Of a stretch of DNA of 64,000 nucleotides, positions 1 to 10,204 are shown piece after piece. Source of the stretch: Mycolicibacterium arabiense (GTDB lineage: Bacteria; Actinomycetota; Actinomycetes; Mycobacteriales; Mycobacteriaceae); NCBI RefSeq assembly GCF_010731815.2, contig NZ_AP022593.1, forward strand, positions 1,364,001-1,428,000. Reading direction: 5' to 3'. Both the position numbers and the translations under genes were made by a program. Within the stretch, counting starts at the first letter, position 1, and each line of letters opens with the position of its first letter. The notes under the pieces were generated by a model, which was not told the origin of the DNA, did not search any database, and saw only the letters and a program-made list of their open reading frames with translations.

Positions 1-955
1 CCCGGGTCGAGTCCAGGATCGCGCGGGCGCGTTCGGTGTCGCCGGCGTCGAGTTCCTGCAGCGCCGTGGACGCGGCGGGGTAGATGGCGGCGAAGATGCC
101 CAGCAGCGCGTCGGAATGTCCTCGGTCGTCGCCGACGATCAGTTCCGGATAGTTGAAGTCGTCGCCGGTGTAGAGCCGTACGCCATCGGGAAGTGCGCGA
201 CGCAGCGCGATTTCGTGTTCGGCGTCGAGCAGGGACACCTTGACCCCGTCGACCGCGTCGGCGTGTTCTTCGATCAGGCTCAGGAAGGTCCCGGTGGCCG
301 AGGCGACGTCGGTGCTTCCCCAGTAGCCGCGCAGCGCGGGGTCGAACATCTCCCCCAGCCAGTGCAGGATGACGGGCCGGTCCACGTGGGCCAGCAGCGT
401 CCGGTACACGGTCAGGTAGTCCTCGGGCGACTGTGCGACCGCGGCCAGCGCCCGGGACGCCATCACGACGACGCGGGCGCCTGCGCCTGCGACGACGTCG
501 ATCTGCTCGCGGTAGGCATCGCCGATCATCCGCAGCCCCGCCACCCCGGACGGAACGTCGGCGATACGCAGTTGGTCGGTACCCGCGCCGCAGGCCAGTC
601 GCCCACCCGACTTGGCGGCTTCCTCGCCGCTGCGTCGGATCAACTCGGCCGTTGCGTCCCAGTCCATGCCCATGCCGCGCTGGGCGGTGTCCATGGCGTC
701 GGCGACGCCCAGCCCGTACGACCACAGCTCGTGGCGGTAGGCCAGCGTCGCGTCCCAGTCGAGGTCGGCGGGCGCCCCTGGTGCGTTGTCGGCCGTGGTG
801 CGGGGCACGACGTGCGCTGCGGCGTAGGCGATCCGGGACCGGATCGGTCCGTCGGGTTTGCGCCACGGACCCGGTGTGCCGAGGCGGTGTGCGCGCAGTT
901 CACCGTCGAGGGGAAGGGTGACGACGAGGTCGGTCGGCGCGTGGGTGAGCGTCAT
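1..955 (-). CDS. DUF993 family protein (dihydrodipicolinate synthase-like), 3' end outside window
   Basis: The minus-strand frame is open from an ATG at 955 to the left edge, so the C-terminus is missing and about 318 residues are visible. The translation begins MTLTHAPTDLVVTLPLDG and contains GRLACGAGTDQL, GARVVVMASRAL and VILHWLGEMFDPALRGYWGS. I recognise these as DUF993, a family with a TIM-barrel fold like class I aldolases of the dihydrodipicolinate synthase type. No substrate is established that I know of. The ATG overlaps the stop of the upstream oxidoreductase (ATGA, 955-952), so the two are translationally coupled and probably act in one catabolic route. An aldolase or lyase step is inference from fold and context. 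The family call is fairly secure; the function is not. Confidence 0.8.
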   Translation of the reverse strand, partial: MTLTHAPTDLVVTLPLDGELRAHRLGTPGPWRKPDGPIRSRIAYAAAHVVPRTTADNAPGAPADLDWDATLAYRHELWSYGLGVADAMDTAQRGMGMDWDATAELIRRSGEEAAKSGGRLACGAGTDQLRIADVPSGVAGLRMIGDAYREQIDVVAGAGARVVVMASRALAAVAQSPEDYLTVYRTLLAHVDRPVILHWLGEMFDPALRGYWGSTDVASATGTFLSLIEEHADAVDGVKVSLLDAEHEIALRRALPDGVRLYTGDDFNYPELIVGDDRGHSDALLGIFAAIYPAASTALQELDAGDTERARAILDSTR

Positions 956-2130
956 AGCGCGATCTCCGGCACCTCGACGCGGATGCCGCGGGCCGAACTC
1001 GTCAGGCCGAGTTCGGCGAGTTGCACGCCGCGCGCTGCCGAGAGCAGCCCGAAGCGGTGCGGCCGGCCGGCGACGGCGTCGCGCAGGTACTCCTCCCACT
1101 GCAACTTGAACCCGTTGTCCAGGTCACCGTTGGCGGGCACCTCGAGCCACTGGTCGCGGAACTTCTCGGTGACCGGCAGGTCGGGGTTCCACACGGGTTT
1201 CGGGGTGTGCGCCCGCTGCTGTGCGACGCAGCGCCGCAACCCGGCGACCGCGGACCCGTGGGTGCCGTCGATCTGGAATTCGACGAGTTCGTCGCGGTAG
1301 ACGCGGACCGCCCACGACGAGTTGATCTGGGCGATGATCCCGCCCTCGATCTCGAAGATGCCGTAGGCGGCGTCGTCGGCCGTGGCGGGGTAGGCCGTGC
1401 CGGACTCGTCCCACCGGGTGGGGATGTGGGTGACGGCCTTGGCGGTGACGGCCCGAACCGTGCCGAGCAGACCCTCCATGACGTAGTTCCAGTGGCAGAA
1501 CATGTCGACGGTGATGCCACCGCCGTCCTCGGCGCGGTAGTTCCAACTGGGGCGTTGCGCGGCCTGGCCGTCGCCTTCGAACACCCAGTAGCCGAACTCG
1601 CCGCGCATCGAGAGGATCCGGCCGAAGAAGCCCTCGTCGACCAGGCGGCGCAGCTTGACCAGCCCGGGGAGGTAGAGCTTGTCGTGCACGACGCCCGCGA
1701 CCACGCCTGCGTTCTCCGCCATCCGCGCGAGTTCGATTGCCTCGGTGAGCGTCTCGGCGGTGGGCTTCTCGGTGTACACGTGCTTGCCCGCCTTGATGGC
1801 TGCGGTCAGCGCCTCGACCCTGCGTGAGGTGACCTGGGCGTCGAAGTACACGTCGACCGACGGGTCGGCGATCACCGACGCGGCGTCGGTGGTCCAGTGT
1901 TCGATGCCGTGCTCGGCAGCCATGTCGGCGAGCCGATCGGCGTTGCGGCCGACGAGGATCGGTTCGACGTCGAGGCGCGTGCCGTCGTCGAGGGTCAGGC
2001 CCGAGTCGCGCAGCGGCAGGATCGAGCGGACGAGATGCTGGCGGTACCCCATCCGTCCGGTCACGCCGTTCATCGCGATGCGAAGGGTTCTGCGGTCGCC
2101 CTGACGTGCAGGGGTGGTGGAAGAAGACAT
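952..2130 (-). CDS. Gfo/Idh/MocA family NAD(P)-dependent oxidoreductase
   Basis: 392 aa. The N-terminal Rossmann segment (about residues 16-30, IAMNGVTGRMGYRQ) has a glycine-rich turn. The family EKP motif is at 121-123 (VYTEKP), and a typical C-terminal alpha/beta substrate domain follows with GGGITVDMFCHW. The enzyme should oxidise or reduce a hydroxyl of a sugar, inositol or similar polyol using NAD(P). It is the first gene of an operon with the DUF993 gene (ATGA overlap) and is divergent from a LacI regulator. A TTGACC-17-TACCGT promoter and a LacI-type operator lie directly upstream. The start was chosen because nothing in frame upstream is better. The family is certain; the substrate is unknown. 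Confidence 0.9.
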   Translation of the reverse strand: MSSSTTPARQGDRRTLRIAMNGVTGRMGYRQHLVRSILPLRDSGLTLDDGTRLDVEPILVGRNADRLADMAAEHGIEHWTTDAASVIADPSVDVYFDAQVTSRRVEALTAAIKAGKHVYTEKPTAETLTEAIELARMAENAGVVAGVVHDKLYLPGLVKLRRLVDEGFFGRILSMRGEFGYWVFEGDGQAAQRPSWNYRAEDGGGITVDMFCHWNYVMEGLLGTVRAVTAKAVTHIPTRWDESGTAYPATADDAAYGIFEIEGGIIAQINSSWAVRVYRDELVEFQIDGTHGSAVAGLRRCVAQQRAHTPKPVWNPDLPVTEKFRDQWLEVPANGDLDNGFKLQWEEYLRDAVAGRPHRFGLLSAARGVQLAELGLTSSARGIRVEVPEIAL

Positions 2131-2197
2131 GTGAGTGTGCCCCGTCTGATGGGCGCGGACGTATGCGACGCCGCGCGGATGCGGTCGGTTGCACTTC

Positions 2198-2211
2198 GGA
2201 ATGCGCTTTCC
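2198..2211. promoter_or_regulatory. LacI-family operator, copy 1
   Basis: GGAATGCGCTTTCC. This is the exact reverse complement of copy 2 at 3401-3414. It is a palindrome with one mismatched pair and a central GCGC, as LacI-family sites usually have a central CG. It lies just downstream of the -10 box of the oxidoreductase promoter and about 90 bp upstream of the LacI gene. Confidence 0.75.
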
Positions 2212-2240
2212 ACGGTAAGCTGCCGAGGCGCGGCGGTCAA
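2212..2240 (-). promoter_or_regulatory. Promoter of the Gfo/Idh-DUF993 operon
   Basis: Read on the minus strand: TTGACC (2240-2235), a 17-nt spacer, then TACCGT (2217-2212). This fits a mycobacterial SigA-type promoter. The operator at 2198-2211 begins at the very next base, where a bound repressor would block initiation. Confidence 0.65.
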
Positions 2241-2300
2241 GCGTCGCGTCGGATCCGTGTCGATCCGGTCAGCCGGACCCGGACGTGGAGGACGCAGCAG

Positions 2301-3326
2301 ATGGCGGTGACCCTGCAGGACGTGGCCGCGCGGGCGGGAGTCTCGCAGGCCACCGCGTCGCGGGTGCTCAACGGGTCGGCCCGCGTTCCCGGCGAAGGCG
2401 TCGCCGACCGGGTCCGCACTGCCGCCCGTGAACTCGGATACGTCCCAAATGCCCAGGCCCAGGCGCTCGCCCGTGCCTCGACCGGCCTGCTGGGGTTGAT
2501 CGTGCACGACATCGCGGACCCGTACTTCTCCTCGATCGCCCGCGGTGTGCAGTCCGCTGCCAGAACGGCCAACAAACAGGTGCTGTTGGCCAGCACCGAC
2601 CGCGACTTCGACATCGAGCGCGACGCGGTCAGCACCTTCATCTCGCACCGCGCCGACGCCATCGTGCTGGCGGGTTCGCGCCAGAGCGGCGACCTCGACC
2701 GCGACCTGGAGACCGAGTTCGGCCGCTACCGGGCCAACGGCGGGCGCGTCGTGGCGATCGGGCAGCCGCTGGCGTTCGGCGGCGCCGTCGAACCCGAGAA
2801 TCACTACGCCTCTGGGCAATTGGCGGACGCCCTGATCGAGGCCGGGCATCAGCGGTTCGCCGTGATCGGCGGGCCTGGCAACATCCGCACGTCGGTGGAC
2901 CGCCGCAACGGCTTCGTCGAGACCCTGGCCAGGCGCGGACTCACCCCCCTGGTTGAGGTATCCGGCGACTTCACCCGCGACGGTGGCCATTCCGCGGCGC
3001 ACCGCCTGGCCGCGGCGTTGCAGGTGACCGCCGACTCCGGGGCTCCGCCGGTGTGCGTCTTCGCCGTCACCGACGTAATGGCCATCGGTGCGATCGCCGC
3101 GTGGCGCGACCTCGGACTGAGCGTGCCGCGCGACGTCTGCATCGCCGGCTTCGACGACATCCCGACACTGCGCGACCACACCCCCAGCCTGTCGACCGTG
3201 GCGCTGCCACTGGAGGAGATCGGTACGCGCGCCGTCGAATTGGCGTTGCGGACCGATGCCGACGCCGCGGATCTCCGCGAGCGGATCCCCGGCCGCGTGA
3301 TCCTGCGCGACAGCACACGCCTCTGA
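2301..3326 (+). CDS. LacI-family transcriptional regulator
   Basis: 341 aa from the ATG at 2301, with GGAGG nine bases upstream (2287-2291). A longer upstream reading is open but has no such site. Residues 3-24 (VTLQDVAARAGVSQATASRVLN) are the LacI helix-turn-helix and hinge start. A periplasmic-binding-protein-like sensor domain follows from about residue 60 (GLIVHDIADPYFSSIARGVQ), ending near IAGFDDIPTLRDHTPSLSTV. It sits between the oxidoreductase operon and the ABC transporter operon. Both promoters carry the same 14-bp site, so it is very likely a local repressor released by the transported compound or a derivative. The effector is unknown. Confidence 0.93.
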   Translation: MAVTLQDVAARAGVSQATASRVLNGSARVPGEGVADRVRTAARELGYVPNAQAQALARASTGLLGLIVHDIADPYFSSIARGVQSAARTANKQVLLASTDRDFDIERDAVSTFISHRADAIVLAGSRQSGDLDRDLETEFGRYRANGGRVVAIGQPLAFGGAVEPENHYASGQLADALIEAGHQRFAVIGGPGNIRTSVDRRNGFVETLARRGLTPLVEVSGDFTRDGGHSAAHRLAAALQVTADSGAPPVCVFAVTDVMAIGAIAAWRDLGLSVPRDVCIAGFDDIPTLRDHTPSLSTVALPLEEIGTRAVELALRTDADAADLRERIPGRVILRDSTRL

Positions 3327-3358
3327 TCAGCGCGAACACGCCGGGCACGGCGAGGGCG

Positions 3359-3388
3359 TTGACAGTGTGGGCTGCATCACGTTATCGT
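3359..3388 (+). promoter_or_regulatory. Promoter of the ABC transporter operon
   Basis: TTGACA (3359-3364), an 18-nt spacer, then TATCGT (3383-3388, a TAnnnT -10). The transcript should start around 3395, a few bases before the operator at 3401, so a bound repressor would block it. Confidence 0.7.
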
Positions 3389-3400
3389 CGGCCTTGCTTC

Positions 3401-3414
3401 GGAAAGCGCATTCC
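3401..3414. promoter_or_regulatory. LacI-family operator, copy 2
   Basis: GGAAAGCGCATTCC, identical on the opposite strand to the site at 2198-2211. It lies between the predicted transcription start and the permease ATG at 3461. The shared site ties the transporter and the oxidoreductase operon to one regulator. Confidence 0.75.
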
Positions 3415-3460
3415 CAACGGGCGCTGAGATCGCCCGGGCCCTTCGAACTTAGGACTGTCC

Positions 3461-4336
3461 ATGGCCGTTACCGCTCCGGCCGGGCTGCGCGACACCGCGC
3501 AGCCGGTCTCGCAGCCGGCATCACGACGACCGCGCCGCCCATCGTTCTCACCACGCGCCACCCTGTCGAACTTCTGGCGTCCGATGGCGCTGTTGGCCGC
3601 GCTGCTCGCAGCCTGGTGGGCCGTGACGGAGGCCGAACTGGTCGCGCCCTACATCCTCCCGTCACCGGCCGACACGTGGGCCACCGCCCGGGAGAACGCC
3701 GCCTACCTAGCCCAGAACACCTGGGTCACCACCTGGGAGACGGTGATCGGCTTCGCGATCGCCGCCGTCTTCGGCGTCCTGATGGCCGTCGTGATGGTGT
3801 ACTCCTCCAACGTGGAGAAGACGGTCTACCCGTTGATCCTCTTCGCACAGGTGGTGCCCAAGATCGCGATCGCGCCACTGTTCATCGTGTGGCTCGGCTT
3901 CGGCCCCTCGCCCAAGATCCTCGTCGCCGTCCTGATGGCGTTCTTCCCGGTCGTCATCTCGTGCCTCGCAGGTCTGCGGACGGTGGATCCCGAGATCCTC
4001 GAACTCACCTCGACGATGGGTGCGAGCCGTTTCAAGACGTTCATGAAGATCCGGTTCCCGGCCTCGCTGCCACAGCTCATGTCCGGCCTGAAGGTCGCTG
4101 CCACGCTCGCCGTCACCGGCGCCGTGGTTGGCGAGTTCGTCGGCTCCAACGAAGGACTCGGCTACGTCATCCTCCAGGCGAACGGCAACGTCGACACCGC
4201 AATGCTGTTCGCCGCCCTGATCATCATGTCCTTCCTGGGCATCGTGCTCTTCGCCATCATCGAGATCGCCGAGAAGCTGCTCATCCCCTGGCATTCCTCA
4301 CGACGCGCCGCCTCATCGACCACCCACGCCGTCTGA
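3461..4336 (+). CDS. ABC transporter permease, NitT/TauT (SsuC-like) type
   Basis: 291 aa. A basic N-terminal tail of about 40 residues is followed by roughly six hydrophobic helices. The permease loop that contacts the ATPase is LTSTMGASRFKTFMKIRFPASLP (EAA-type). It resembles the inner-membrane subunit of nitrate, taurine, sulfonate and pyrimidine-precursor importers. It is the first gene of a three-gene operon: 33 bp to the binding protein, then 10 bp to the ATPase. AGGA at 3451 supports the ATG at 3461. The operator at 3401 suggests induction by substrate. Confidence 0.9.
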   Translation: MAVTAPAGLRDTAQPVSQPASRRPRRPSFSPRATLSNFWRPMALLAALLAAWWAVTEAELVAPYILPSPADTWATARENAAYLAQNTWVTTWETVIGFAIAAVFGVLMAVVMVYSSNVEKTVYPLILFAQVVPKIAIAPLFIVWLGFGPSPKILVAVLMAFFPVVISCLAGLRTVDPEILELTSTMGASRFKTFMKIRFPASLPQLMSGLKVAATLAVTGAVVGEFVGSNEGLGYVILQANGNVDTAMLFAALIIMSFLGIVLFAIIEIAEKLLIPWHSSRRAASSTTHAV

Positions 4337-4369
4337 CCCACCACCGTCGACCCAATCAAGGAGACACCC

Positions 4370-5407
4370 ATGACGTTCACCCGACGCCGCGCCGTCGCCA
4401 TCGCCGCGGCCGCCACCGCCACCGCCCTCACGCTGACCGCCTGTGGCGGAAGTGGTTCGCAGAGCACCGATTCCGCCGACGGCTCGGCCGCACCGGCAAC
4501 GCTAATGCTGAACTGGTACCCCTACGGCGAGCACGCACCGTTCTACTACGGCGTGGAGAAGGGGATCTTCGCCAAGCACGGCGTGGACCTGACGATCGAC
4601 GCCGGCCAGGGCTCCACCAAGACCGTGCAGGCCGTCGGCTCCCAACAGACCGACTTCGGCTGGGCAGACACCCCCGCGGTGCTGAGCAACATCGACAAGG
4701 GCGTCGACGTCAAGAGCGCAGGGGTGTACCTGCAGACCACGCCGTCGGCCGTGCAGGTGTTCGCGGACTCCGGGATCAACACGCCGCAGGACCTCGTCGG
4801 CCGCACCATCGCCGTCTCCGCCGGTGACGCGCCCACCACGACGTTCCCGATCTTCCTCGACAAGGTCGGCATCGCCGACGATCAGGTCAAGCAGCAGAGC
4901 CTCGACGCGGCGGGCAAGATGGCCGCAATGCTCTCGGGTCGCGTCGACGGCCTGATCGGCTTCGCGCACGACCAGGGGCCGACGATCGCAAACAAGAGCG
5001 GCCGCGAGGTGCGCTACCTCCGCTACTCCGACGCCGGCCTCAACTTCTACAGCAACGGGCTGATCGCGAACACCAAGACGATCGCTGACGACCCGGAACT
5101 GGTGCAGGCCATGGTCGACGCCACCAGCGAGGCCTACGCCGCCGCGGCAGCCGACCCACAGGGCGCCGTCGACGCGATGGCCGGCAAGGATCCGCAGATG
5201 CCGCCGCGCGAGGTGCTGCTCGAGCAGTGGCAGCAGACCATCCCGCTGCTGAACACTCCGGCCACGGCGGACAAGGCGCCCGGCGTCAACGCCGAGGAGG
5301 ACTGGACGGCCACCATCGCCACCCTCAACCAGGCCGGCCTGCTGGAGACGGCGAAGAACCCGTCGGAGTACTGGGATTCGTCCTTCGCTCCGCGCGGCGA
5401 GCAGTAG
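4370..5407 (+). CDS. ABC transporter substrate-binding lipoprotein (NMT1/THI5-like, SsuA/ThiY type)
   Basis: 345 aa. The export signal has a basic start (TRRRAVAIA) and lipobox LTAC with the lipidated cysteine at residue 25. The mature part begins LMLNWYPYGEHAPFYYGVEKGIF and continues with a TVQAVGSQQTDFGWADTP segment, typical of NMT1/THI5-like or SsuA-like proteins that bind small organic ions or pyrimidines. It should sit on the outer face of the membrane and feed the permease. AAGGAG lies upstream of the ATG. Family membership is clear. The ligand cannot be read from the sequence. The LacI and dehydrogenase context argues for a carbon source rather than sulfonate. Confidence 0.9.
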   Translation: MTFTRRRAVAIAAAATATALTLTACGGSGSQSTDSADGSAAPATLMLNWYPYGEHAPFYYGVEKGIFAKHGVDLTIDAGQGSTKTVQAVGSQQTDFGWADTPAVLSNIDKGVDVKSAGVYLQTTPSAVQVFADSGINTPQDLVGRTIAVSAGDAPTTTFPIFLDKVGIADDQVKQQSLDAAGKMAAMLSGRVDGLIGFAHDQGPTIANKSGREVRYLRYSDAGLNFYSNGLIANTKTIADDPELVQAMVDATSEAYAAAAADPQGAVDAMAGKDPQMPPREVLLEQWQQTIPLLNTPATADKAPGVNAEEDWTATIATLNQAGLLETAKNPSEYWDSSFAPRGEQ

Positions 5408-5417
5408 GGGGACGCAG

Positions 5418-6227
5418 ATGAGCACCGCCATGATCGACACCGAGACCGGCGTGACGCCGGCGGCGATCTCCATCGACGACCTCACCGTCACCTTCTCGTC
5501 CAAGCGCGGCACCACCACCGCGCTCGAGGACATCGACCTGTCCGTGGCCGACGGCGAATTCGTCACCATCGCAGGCCCTTCCGGCTGCGGTAAGTCGACG
5601 CTGCTGAAGGTGATCGCAGGCCTCACCAACTCCACCCGGGGCGAGGTGCGGTTGCGGGGCCGCGACGTCCGCGGGCCCCAGCGCGAGATCGGCTACGTCT
5701 TCCAGCGCGCAGCCTTGCTGGAATGGCGCAGCGTGCGCAAGAACATCCTGCTGCAGGCCGAGATGCGCGGCATGTCACGCCAGGCCGCAGCGCGCCGCTG
5801 CGACCACCTGCTCGAGATGACCGGGCTGACCGGGTTCGAGAACGCCATGCCGTACGAGCTGTCCGGCGGTATGCAACAACGAGTCTCACTGTGCCGGGCG
5901 CTGCTGCACGAACCCGACGTGCTGCTCATGGACGAGCCCTTCGGCGCACTCGATGCGTTGACCCGCGAGAAGATGAACGTCGAGCTGCACCGGATCTGGC
6001 GCGAGACCAAGACCACCGTCGTCCTGGTCACCCACTCCGTCGCCGAGGCGGTCTACCTGGCCAACCGCGTGGTGGTGATGAGCCCGCGTCCCGGCCGCAT
6101 CGTCGAGACACTCGACGTCGACCTGCCGGGGCACCGCGACTACGCCGAGACGATGGAACGCCCGGAGTTCATCCACGTCGCCAACCGCGTGCGCGAACTG
6201 CTGGGCAGCGCTTCGGCCGCCGACTGA
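5418..6227 (+). CDS. ABC transporter ATP-binding protein, NitT/TauT (SsuB-like) type
   Basis: 269 aa. Walker A is GPSGCGKST (53-61), the Q-loop is FQR near 95, the signature LSGGMQQ is at 148-154, the Walker B/DEP is at 171-174 and the switch histidine is in VTHSVAEAV. It energises the permease encoded two genes upstream. It has no extra C-terminal regulatory domain. A purine-rich GGGGGACGCAG precedes the ATG. It converges with the merR gene with only 11 bp between stops. Confidence 0.93.
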   Translation: MSTAMIDTETGVTPAAISIDDLTVTFSSKRGTTTALEDIDLSVADGEFVTIAGPSGCGKSTLLKVIAGLTNSTRGEVRLRGRDVRGPQREIGYVFQRAALLEWRSVRKNILLQAEMRGMSRQAAARRCDHLLEMTGLTGFENAMPYELSGGMQQRVSLCRALLHEPDVLLMDEPFGALDALTREKMNVELHRIWRETKTTVVLVTHSVAEAVYLANRVVVMSPRPGRIVETLDVDLPGHRDYAETMERPEFIHVANRVRELLGSASAAD

Positions 6228-6238
6228 ACGACGACCGG

Positions 6239-6676
6239 CTAGCCCTGCTCCGGCCCGGAGTGCTGCGCCGCGATCTGCTCGACGGTGGCACCATCGACCA
6301 GTCGGTCCAGGGCGCCGATCATCGTGGCGCACTCCCGCGCCGGATGATCGGTCGGGCAGTTCAGCGCATGGGTGAGGAACTCCTTGGCACCCCGGGCCTG
6401 TGCGATCACCCGATCCAGTTCGGCGATCTGGTCGCGAATCGTCGCGCGCCACTGTTCGCTCGGGGCGTCGAGGACCTCGGCGGCCGCGTCCAGCGGCAAG
6501 CCCAACCGGTGCGCGATCTTCAGGAACGCCAGGTGGCGCATCTCCTGGGGCCCGTACATGCGCCTGCCTGCCCGACGTGCCACCGGTCTGACCAACCCGC
6601 GGTCGTCGTAGTAGCGCAGCGCCGACGGCCGCATCCGCAGCCGCGCGGCCGCCTCGCCGATCGAGATCACGTCCAT
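6239..6676 (-). CDS. MerR-family transcriptional regulator
   Basis: 145 aa. The winged HTH (residues 5-31, IGEAAARLRMRPSALRYYDDRGLVRP) is followed by a dimerisation helix. A C-terminal loop, CPTDHPAREC, has cysteines at 107 and 116. Paired cysteines here resemble the metal or thiol sensing loop of CueR-like MerR proteins, but many actinobacterial homologues carry this loop and the signal is unknown. It is divergent from the methyltransferase gene; the shared 45-bp region holds a MerR-type promoter. The ATG at 6676 is the first codon of the conserved domain. Confidence 0.88.
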   Translation of the reverse strand: MDVISIGEAAARLRMRPSALRYYDDRGLVRPVARRAGRRMYGPQEMRHLAFLKIAHRLGLPLDAAAEVLDAPSEQWRATIRDQIAELDRVIAQARGAKEFLTHALNCPTDHPARECATMIGALDRLVDGATVEQIAAQHSGPEQG

Positions 6677-6683
6677 ACGACAT

Positions 6684-6714
6684 TTGACTTCAACCCGGCT
6701 TGAACCGGCAAGGT
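6684..6714 (+). promoter_or_regulatory. MerR-type promoter with 19-bp spacer
   Basis: TTGACT (6684-6689), a 19-nt spacer, then CAAGGT (6709-6714). The inverted repeat TTCAA-N6-TTGAA (6689-6704) lies across the start of the spacer. Over-long 19-bp spacers with a dyad between -35 and -10 are the hallmark of MerR-activated promoters. The GTG of the methyltransferase follows seven bases after the -10, so the transcript is predicted to be leaderless. Confidence 0.65.
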
Positions 6715-6721
6715 CGAATCC

Positions 6722-7339
6722 GTGAGTGAGCCAGCGTCCCCCCAACCCGTCAACCACCACGCCGACCACCCAGGTTTCGCAGGCATCGGCGGAGCGCTCT
6801 GCGGTCTGGTCTTCCTGCTCGTCGGCCGCGCCAACGCGAGGCTCGTGGTCGCGCTCGCGCGCCCCGCGGTGGGTGACCACGTCGTCGACGTCGGATGCGG
6901 GCCCGGCACCGCCGCCCGGGCCGCCGCGCGGCGCGGCGCCCGCGTCACCGGTGTCGACCCCGCCGAAACCATGCTGCGCTTGGCGCGCGCCGTCACCCAC
7001 CGTCAGGACGTCACGTGGGCCGAGGGCTCCGCCGAGGCACTACCCGTCGCCGACGGTACGGCGACCGTCGTATGGGCACTGGCCACGGTGCACCACTGGC
7101 GTGACGCGAGTGCCGGTGTCGCCGAGGCACACCGGGTGCTGCGGGCGGGTGGACGCCTGATCGCGATCGAACGCCGGACGACCCGGGACGCGACCGGCCT
7201 GTCCAGTCACGGGTGGACCCGCGAGCAGGCCGAGTCCTTCGCCGAGCTGTGCCGCACCACCGGCTTCGTCGACGTCGACGTGCGCGGCGAGCGGGCCGGA
7301 CGACGCGACGTGTGGGCGGTCATCGGTCACCGCGCCTGA
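6722..7339 (+). CDS. Class I SAM-dependent methyltransferase
   Basis: 205 aa from a GTG at 6722. Motif I (VVDVGCGPGTA, about 54-64) binds S-adenosylmethionine. Motif II is at GVDPAETML and the post-I acidic region at EGSAEALPVADG. The fold is that of small UbiE/Methyltransf_11 proteins, and the acceptor is unknown. The probable promoter is the MerR-type site at 6684-6714, so the neighbouring MerR protein likely controls it. It converges with the MATE gene, with stop codons three bases apart. Confidence 0.85.
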   Translation: MSEPASPQPVNHHADHPGFAGIGGALCGLVFLLVGRANARLVVALARPAVGDHVVDVGCGPGTAARAAARRGARVTGVDPAETMLRLARAVTHRQDVTWAEGSAEALPVADGTATVVWALATVHHWRDASAGVAEAHRVLRAGGRLIAIERRTTRDATGLSSHGWTREQAESFAELCRTTGFVDVDVRGERAGRRDVWAVIGHRA

Positions 7340-7342
7340 CGC

Positions 7343-8671
7343 TCAACCCGTGCCCGCCACCAACCACCGGCCGGAGGCGGCGCGCCAGCCGACGAACACC
7401 AGGCGCAGCGCCATGAACGTGGTGAGCCCCGCCCAGATGCCGAGCAGCCCCCAGCCGAACGCCAGCGACAGCCAGATCGGCGGCAGGAACCCGATCAGCG
7501 CGGACGCCAGCGTGGCGTTGCGCATGAACTTTGCGTCCCCCGCCCCGAGCAGCACGCCGTCGAGCGCGAACACGATGCCCGCCACCGGAAGCTGCGCCAC
7601 CAGGAACCACCACGGCACGTCGATCTCGTCGAGAACCGAACGGTCGCTGGTGAACAGCGTCGGCACCACCGACGCGCCGGCCGCGAACGCAGCCGCCAGC
7701 ACCGCGGCAGCCAGCGTCGAGAACACCGTCACCCGCCACGCAACGGACTTGGCGTGCGCGAGCTGACCGGCGCCCAGCGCAGCACCGACCAGTGACTGTG
7801 CCGCGATGGCCAGGGAATCGAGCACTAAGGCGAGGAAGCTCCACAGTTGCAGCACCACCTGGTGCGCAGCGACCGCAGCCGCCCCGAACCGCGCGGCGAC
7901 GGCTGCCGCCGAGACGAAGCAGGCCTGAAAGGCCAACGTGCGCACCAGCAGATCGCGACCCATCACCACCTGCGCCCGCAGGATGCCGACGTCGATGCGG
8001 AGCGGAACGCCCTCGGCGAGCAGCGCCCGGCAGAACAGCAACGCCGCCAGCCACTGCCCCACCAGATTGGCCACGGCCGAGCCTGCCAGCTCCAGCCGCG
8101 GCATCCCCAGCCAGCCGTACACCAGCAGCGGGCACAGCACGGCCGACACCGCGAAGCCGAACACCACGAAGCGCAACGGCCGCACGGTGTCCTGCACCCC
8201 GCGCATCCAGCCGTTGCCTGCCAGCGAGATCAGGATCGCAGGCGCTCCGAAGATCGCGATCCGAAGCCACGGCAGTGCCTCGTCGGCGATCTCGCCGCCA
8301 TCGGCGATCACGCCGAGCAACGGCACCGCGCACACCTGCACCACCGCCACCACCAGCAGACCCAGCCCCACGGCGAGCCACGTCGCCTGCACGCCCTCGC
8401 CCACCGCCGAATCCCGTTCGCCCGCACCGAAGTAGCGCGCCGAGCGCGCCGTCGTGCCATAGGACAGGAACGTCAACTGCGACGCCACCAACGACAGGAT
8501 TAGCCCACCGATCGCCAGACCTGCCAGCGCCAGCGCGCCGAGGCGGCCGACGACCGCGAGGTCGAACAGCAGGTACAGGGGCTCCGCCGCGAGAACGCCG
8601 AGCGCGGGAAAGGCGAGTCCCGCGATGCGCCGGCCGGTGGCAGGCGTCAGCGGGTCCGGACCCTCAGCCAA
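7343..8671 (-). CDS. dinF: MATE-family (DinF-like) multidrug efflux transporter
   Basis: 442 aa with 12 hydrophobic helices and the MatE repeat. The N-terminal part reads IAGLAFPALGVLAAEPLYLLFDLAVVGRLG, typical of the DinF subgroup that exports cationic compounds with Na+ or H+ antiport. It corresponds in position and type to Rv2836c (dinF). The start used is a TTG at 8671; I found no ATG or GTG in frame between there and the end of nrnA, so the true start is uncertain by a few codons. It is the last gene of the leftward rimP-nusA-infB series. Confidence 0.88.
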   Translation of the reverse strand: MAEGPDPLTPATGRRIAGLAFPALGVLAAEPLYLLFDLAVVGRLGALALAGLAIGGLILSLVASQLTFLSYGTTARSARYFGAGERDSAVGEGVQATWLAVGLGLLVVAVVQVCAVPLLGVIADGGEIADEALPWLRIAIFGAPAILISLAGNGWMRGVQDTVRPLRFVVFGFAVSAVLCPLLVYGWLGMPRLELAGSAVANLVGQWLAALLFCRALLAEGVPLRIDVGILRAQVVMGRDLLVRTLAFQACFVSAAAVAARFGAAAVAAHQVVLQLWSFLALVLDSLAIAAQSLVGAALGAGQLAHAKSVAWRVTVFSTLAAAVLAAAFAAGASVVPTLFTSDRSVLDEIDVPWWFLVAQLPVAGIVFALDGVLLGAGDAKFMRNATLASALIGFLPPIWLSLAFGWGLLGIWAGLTTFMALRLVFVGWRAASGRWLVAGTG

Positions 8672-8712
8672 CTCGCGCGTCGACGACGTCGGCCAATGCG
8701 CCGGGGCCCGGG

Positions 8713-10204
<1,492 letters not shown>

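Follow-up and report, generated by a model that had tools for sequence, protein, structure and literature searches.

The two copies of GGAAAGCGCATTCC that flank a lacI gene of Mycolicibacterium arabiense are conserved across many actinobacteria, and they are therefore very probably the real binding sites of this regulator, in a pathway for what is probably a sugar-like nutrient. The predicted regulon comprises two operons, i.e. the genes for a Gfo/Idh dehydrogenase, a DUF993 protein and a TIM-barrel enzyme on one side, and those for an NMT1-type ABC importer on the other; this composition is well supported. As a conserved local regulon of the LacI family with two operons, it belongs to a kind of system that is already known.

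The lacI gene (2301..3326, forward strand) lies in the window, i.e. the whole 64,000-nucleotide stretch analysed. It encodes a protein of 341 amino acids with a helix-turn-helix and a periplasmic-binding-protein-like sensor domain. The family domains were confirmed with Pfam (PF00356 with 52.4 bits at a cut-off of 27, PF13377 with 104.9 bits at a cut-off of 26.5), so that the gene between the two operators is indeed of the LacI type. The enzyme operon runs leftward and begins with the gene of a Gfo/Idh/MocA-family dehydrogenase (952..2130, reverse strand; PF01408, PF22725), a relative of the solved structure 3oqb. The ATG of the next gene, which encodes the DUF993 protein (1..955, reverse strand; PF06187), overlaps the stop codon of the Gfo/Idh gene. 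This gene is cut by the window edge and continues to about G000:C2:1363760; its full length is contained in L006, and the protein is a relative of the solved 4dnh, which we take to be SMc04132. The TIM-barrel (AP_endonuc_2) isomerase-like gene follows DUF993 outside the window (G000:C2:1362941-1363858, L127). A structure search with the orthologue from L094 as the query related it to 7vpf ('Xylose isomerase') and to 3ju2 (SMc04130). On the other side of lacI, three forward-strand genes encode the importer: a permease (3461..4336, PF00528), an NMT1/THI5-like solute-binding protein (4370..5407, PF09084) whose closest solved relative is 3ix1, and an ATPase (5418..6227, PF00005). Among the models listed, none of the six locus proteins reached an NCBIfam equivalog cut-off (for the ATPase these were the best 25 of 187 models), no equivalog was named for the DUF993 and TIM-barrel proteins, and no Rfam family was found in positions 1-9000.

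Operator A (2198..2211, reverse strand) reads GGAAAGCGCATTCC toward the Gfo/Idh gene, abuts the 3' end of a -10 hexamer and lies 67 bp from the start codon; operator B (3401..3414, forward strand) reads GGAAAGCGCATTCC toward the ABC operon, starts 12 nt past a -10 hexamer and lies 46 bp from the start codon of the permease. The earlier note had called the two sites identical, palindromic 14-mers at these positions. The positions are correct and the sites are exact reverse complements of each other, but the palindrome is imperfect, because the W positions 5 and 10 are unlike between the arms. The operator is thus an even, 14-bp palindrome with a central CG pair whose arms agree at 6 of 7 positions. 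Operators of the LacI family are typically even palindromes with a central CG, at a distance of 30-140 bp from the start codon (PMC4052901). On the forward strand, both operators share CTTC immediately to the left of the 14-mer; it is kept at A and B in 15/15 same-genus loci. Of the 44 named loci that share this gene order, 41 were counted (L067, L071 and L088 gave no peptide-marker match and were left out); here CTTC is present at 21 of the A sites and 34 of the B sites. As a separate observation, the asymmetry of the operator (A at positions 5 and 10) has a constant orientation with respect to transcription in the named full loci, at 44/44 B sites and 41/44 A sites; a symmetric dimer would not need such a constant orientation.

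The promoters were as previously described, both in their hexamers and in their spacers, and they are conserved in the same-genus loci. That of the enzyme operon (2212..2240, reverse strand), read from the sequence, consists of TTGACC (2240-2235), 17 nt and TACCGT (2217-2212); that of the transporter operon (3359..3388, forward strand), found by a consensus scan, consists of TTGACA (3359-3364), 18 nt and TATCGT (3383-3388). The scan of positions 2050-3520 reported the rightward promoter alone (10/12; shuffle mean 0.0), the leftward one scoring under the threshold. TTGACC together with an operator-abutting TANNNT is conserved leftward in 15/15 same-genus loci, the own locus included, and TTGACA-16..19-TANNNT is present rightward in 14/15. 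The forward strand of the leftward -10 region contains TAAGCT (2216-2221), a possible overlapping -10 of lacI, i.e. a bidirectional promoter. As operator A lies in the upstream region of lacI and TAAGCT is a potential -10, autoregulation of lacI is possible.

We consider it highly probable that a dimeric LacI repressor acts at both operators by a steric block, and that a catabolite induces the importer and the enzymes together. In the absence of its ligand, the product of lacI would occupy both operators. Operator A covers the start region at the promoter of the enzyme operon, and B falls into the early transcribed region just downstream of the transporter-promoter -10 box, so that the bound repressor would block RNA polymerase at both; steric repression is the best-supported reading of these positions. 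A catabolite of the imported, probably sugar-like solute would then free the repressor, and the importer, the Gfo/Idh dehydrogenase, the DUF993 protein and the TIM-barrel isomerase-like enzyme would be induced together. The binding by the neighbouring LacI protein, the repression, the induction and the class of the substrate are what we infer.

In the window the motif has two matches, both with 0 mismatches; shuffles (n=100, at most 2 mismatches) gave a mean of 0.51, and 8/100 reached two matches at this looser level. In the whole genome (6,451,210 bases, 2 contigs) GGAAWGCGCWTTCC has no exact match besides the two operators, and no one-mismatch match was found in the entire 6.45 Mb. At up to 2 mismatches there are 41 places vs 24 for the reversed control pattern. 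The sites are thus few and lie at the operons adjoining the regulator gene; with no further exact or one-mismatch site, the term local regulon is correct for this genome. A global regulon of the exact motif in this genome was considered as well and is ruled out by there being only two sites.

Conservation within the genus was followed in 198 genomes, the own one included, in which lacI was searched at E<=1e-60. Seventeen were positive: the own gene, 14 genes at 84-87% identity, and two, in genomes G056 and G084, at 47-48%. At the own locus and at all 14 close orthologues (15/15) both operators are in place. GGAAAGCGCATTCC is found at 15/15 B sites and 14/15 A sites, the remaining A site being GGAATGCGCATTCC. 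Around the operators of the same-genus loci conservation falls off, save for the hexamers of the promoters and some bases next to the sites. An exact site occurs in 29/198 genomes, and at least two exact sites in 16, every one of which is lacI-positive, i.e. 16/17 lacI-positive vs 0/181 lacI-negative genomes. In G056, the 17th lacI-positive genome, one of the two sites at the locus is exact and the other has one mismatch. A single exact site occurs in 12/181 lacI-negative congeners, and the reversed control pattern gave one match each in 5 of the 198 genomes. DUF993 is present in 22/198 genomes, among them all 17 lacI-positive ones; the 5 DUF993-positive genomes without this lacI have no exact site. 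In a wider draw, the exact site was found in 56/396 genomes and at least two in 33 (a manual count; lacI was searched in 198 only). Sites and regulator hence co-occur and are conserved across genomes, as expected of a local regulon; the sites, their position, their conservation and their co-occurrence with lacI can be read directly in the sequences.

That the repeat is a chance or mobile one with no regulatory role can practically be dismissed. A 14-mer in two copies is by itself possible by chance in a large genome, and one exact copy does occur in some lacI-negative genomes (the 12 of 181 above), but chance would not account for a position-specific conservation across several genera with flanks that are little conserved, nor for the co-occurrence with lacI.

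Two genomes in which the locus is rearranged help to see what the sites belong to. The gene order in G056 is ABC operon, lacI, Gfo/Idh, DUF993, with the exact site before the permease and the one-mismatch site before Gfo/Idh. G084 has the ABC and enzyme operons in divergent, back-to-back arrangement; two exact sites, 203 bp from each other, are present, but lacI is missing from between the operons, and the only lacI relative at E<=1e-50 is about 2.4 Mb from the operons. In both arrangements the sites go with the operons, and in G084 the regulation would act in trans.

The absence of an adjoining lacI in G084 can also be taken to mean that another regulator, of the LacI family or a CcpA-like global factor, mainly reads the operators and that the lacI gene next to them has no part in this. 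The motif does look like LacI-type sites in general, and genomes of other families contain many copies that are not near these genes. A comparison with CcpA suggests itself, as the recognition-helix sequence is similar here and the operator is AAAGCGCTTT-like; the cre consensus is of this AAAGCGCTTT-like form. Nevertheless, the pairs of exact sites within the genus occur only together with a lacI relative, the two genomic sites do not make a global regulon, and the LacI protein scores far under the cut-off of the CcpA model (137.8 vs 442.35 bits). We therefore regard another principal regulator as very unlikely and retain the neighbouring LacI protein as the predicted reader of both operators. 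The RbsR equivalog (NF047341) did not fit either (170.7 vs a cut-off of 382 bits). The recognition helix was tried as a source of specificity and was uninformative, since its segment is also found in some relatives without the operon; the pattern used for it had no match in 14/80 named loci.

Among genomes from other families of this order, 77/397 contain the motif, with up to 9 copies each, and it is not tied to the operon genes. For example, G510, G474 and G604 each have 6-9 copies of GGAAAGCGCTTTCC, away from the operon genes. From the 22 exact sites in these three genomes, 15 were inspected (L148-L162). Many of them lie within open frames, and no operon-type relatives of Gfo/Idh, DUF993 or the TIM-barrel protein were found within about 1.5 kb of them; the surroundings contained one weak LacI match and one weak ATPase match. 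Two of the 15 sites, L151 and L154, are closely preceded by a TATTCT hexamer. As the motif elsewhere in the order is found in up to 9 copies, often inside genes and not close to those of the operon, other factors may read similar sequences. Its diagnostic value is therefore confined to the genus and does not extend to the whole order.

More distant loci were studied through 80 named loci, the best of 436 lacI relatives; these and the genomes above are partly the same assemblies, so the counts are not additive. The same gene order is found in 44 of these best 80, each with exactly two exact sites, in Mycolicibacterium/Mycobacterium, Tsukamurella, Nocardia, Kitasatospora, Rhodococcoides and Williamsia. 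In these 44 loci B is identical in 44/44 and A in 41/44. The earlier note had let its reading depend on conservation of the motif upstream of orthologous operons, and the reading withstood this test in 15/15 same-genus and 44/44 named loci. Gfo/Idh stands beside lacI in 74 of the best 80 loci, and within 330 bp upstream of it there is an exact site in 69 cases, a one-mismatch site in 4 and none in 1 (L098); the 6 named loci without Gfo/Idh have no exact site. Overall, the 80 loci contain 113 exact and 20 one-mismatch sites, and the reversed control gave 0 and 0.

The spacing of the operators is 1.15-1.22 kb across loci, which raises the question of whether the repressor additionally joins them in a loop that spans lacI (about 1.2 kb) and is held in helical register. 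The spacing was examined in the 76/79 loci with an oriented pair, and its components in 73; a tree-aware null reduced the 73 loci to 54 representatives, and a component-shuffle test was also run. Taken modulo 10.5 bp, the spacings cluster (R was 0.55 with 54 lacI sequences and about 0.5-0.57 overall), and the excess over the tree-aware null had p values of 0.0105-0.0285 in six variants, uncorrected and for a signal that was noticed post hoc. Coarse clustering (28 and 25 sequences) gave best periods within 4-30 bp of 10.5 and 10.4, but finer clustering (54, 47 and 45 sequences) gave the edge of the range, 29.9, and 52 and 38 sequences gave yet other values (10.9 and 10.7). Furthermore, the match of the LacI protein to E. 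coli LacI stops at residue 314 of the chain. The tetramerisation tail of E. coli LacI would begin about where this protein ends, so that dimers are expected. Helical phase should also matter little at 1.2 kb, and the operator pair of G084 is 203 bp apart. Being post hoc and dependent on the method, helical-phase looping is kept as a weak lead; we think it very unlikely, and dimers at the two operators remain the preferred reading.

The arrangement is similar to the local LacI regulons of RegPrecise (Ravcheev et al. 2014, PMC4052901), which have the regulator beside its targets, catabolic and uptake genes as the targets, and an even palindrome with a central CG. It differs from the regulons described there in its Gfo/Idh-DUF993-TIM-barrel targets and in the NMT1/THI5-type importer, here in mycobacteria. 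A further parallel is the SMc04130-SMc04139 cluster of Sinorhizobium meliloti, which includes the TIM-barrel relative solved as SMc04130 (3ju2). In this cluster, SMc04133 is annotated as an oxidoreductase, SMc04132 as uncharacterised and SMc04135 as a solute-binding protein (PMC12542648), and SMc04134 is called a transcription factor (PMC11387232). Searches of the full-text PMC literature, which does not cover subscription papers, found no paper on DUF993, alone or with LacI, and nothing for 3OQB/4DNH or 7VPF. Nothing on this regulon was found in PMC full text either; a prediction in a database of the RegPrecise type may exist.

For the widespread DUF993 operon, the regulon provides an operator, a regulator and a set of targets that can be tested, and the operator is a sequence handle by which other actinobacteria can be searched for the importer and enzymes linked to it. 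The regulon also connects sugar-type enzymes and a regulator of the LacI family with an importer of the NMT1/THI5 type, which bears on the substrate of the importer. With somewhat less than even confidence, we propose that the operator pair marks an undescribed pathway in which the Gfo/Idh, DUF993 and TIM-barrel isomerase-like enzymes would degrade a sugar-like compound, one repressor would also govern its uptake, and the importer would have been swapped between lineages, i.e. the NMT1/THI5-type in mycobacteria and nocardias and a sugar-type SBP_bac_8 system in some Micrococcales. Genes of a glycerate-kinase cluster, present in 10 of the 47 loci with clustered genes, hint at three-carbon products.

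Some Micrococcales lack the NMT1-type importer and have binding-protein genes of the SBP_bac_8 type (Pfam was run on 1 of the 13 genes of this cluster). A one-mismatch site was found within 200 bp upstream of 6/13 of these genes (4/8 loci), and no site upstream of the other 7/13. In Zhihengliuella salsuginis (L092) three successive genes of the cluster (9058, 13387 and 15002) each have a one-mismatch operator upstream, which suggests several importers under one regulator. Finally, a record of Sporosarcina (Bacillota, L111) contains a Gfo/Idh-DUF993-lacI set with an exact operator, as in Arthrobacter, and would reflect either gene transfer or contamination.
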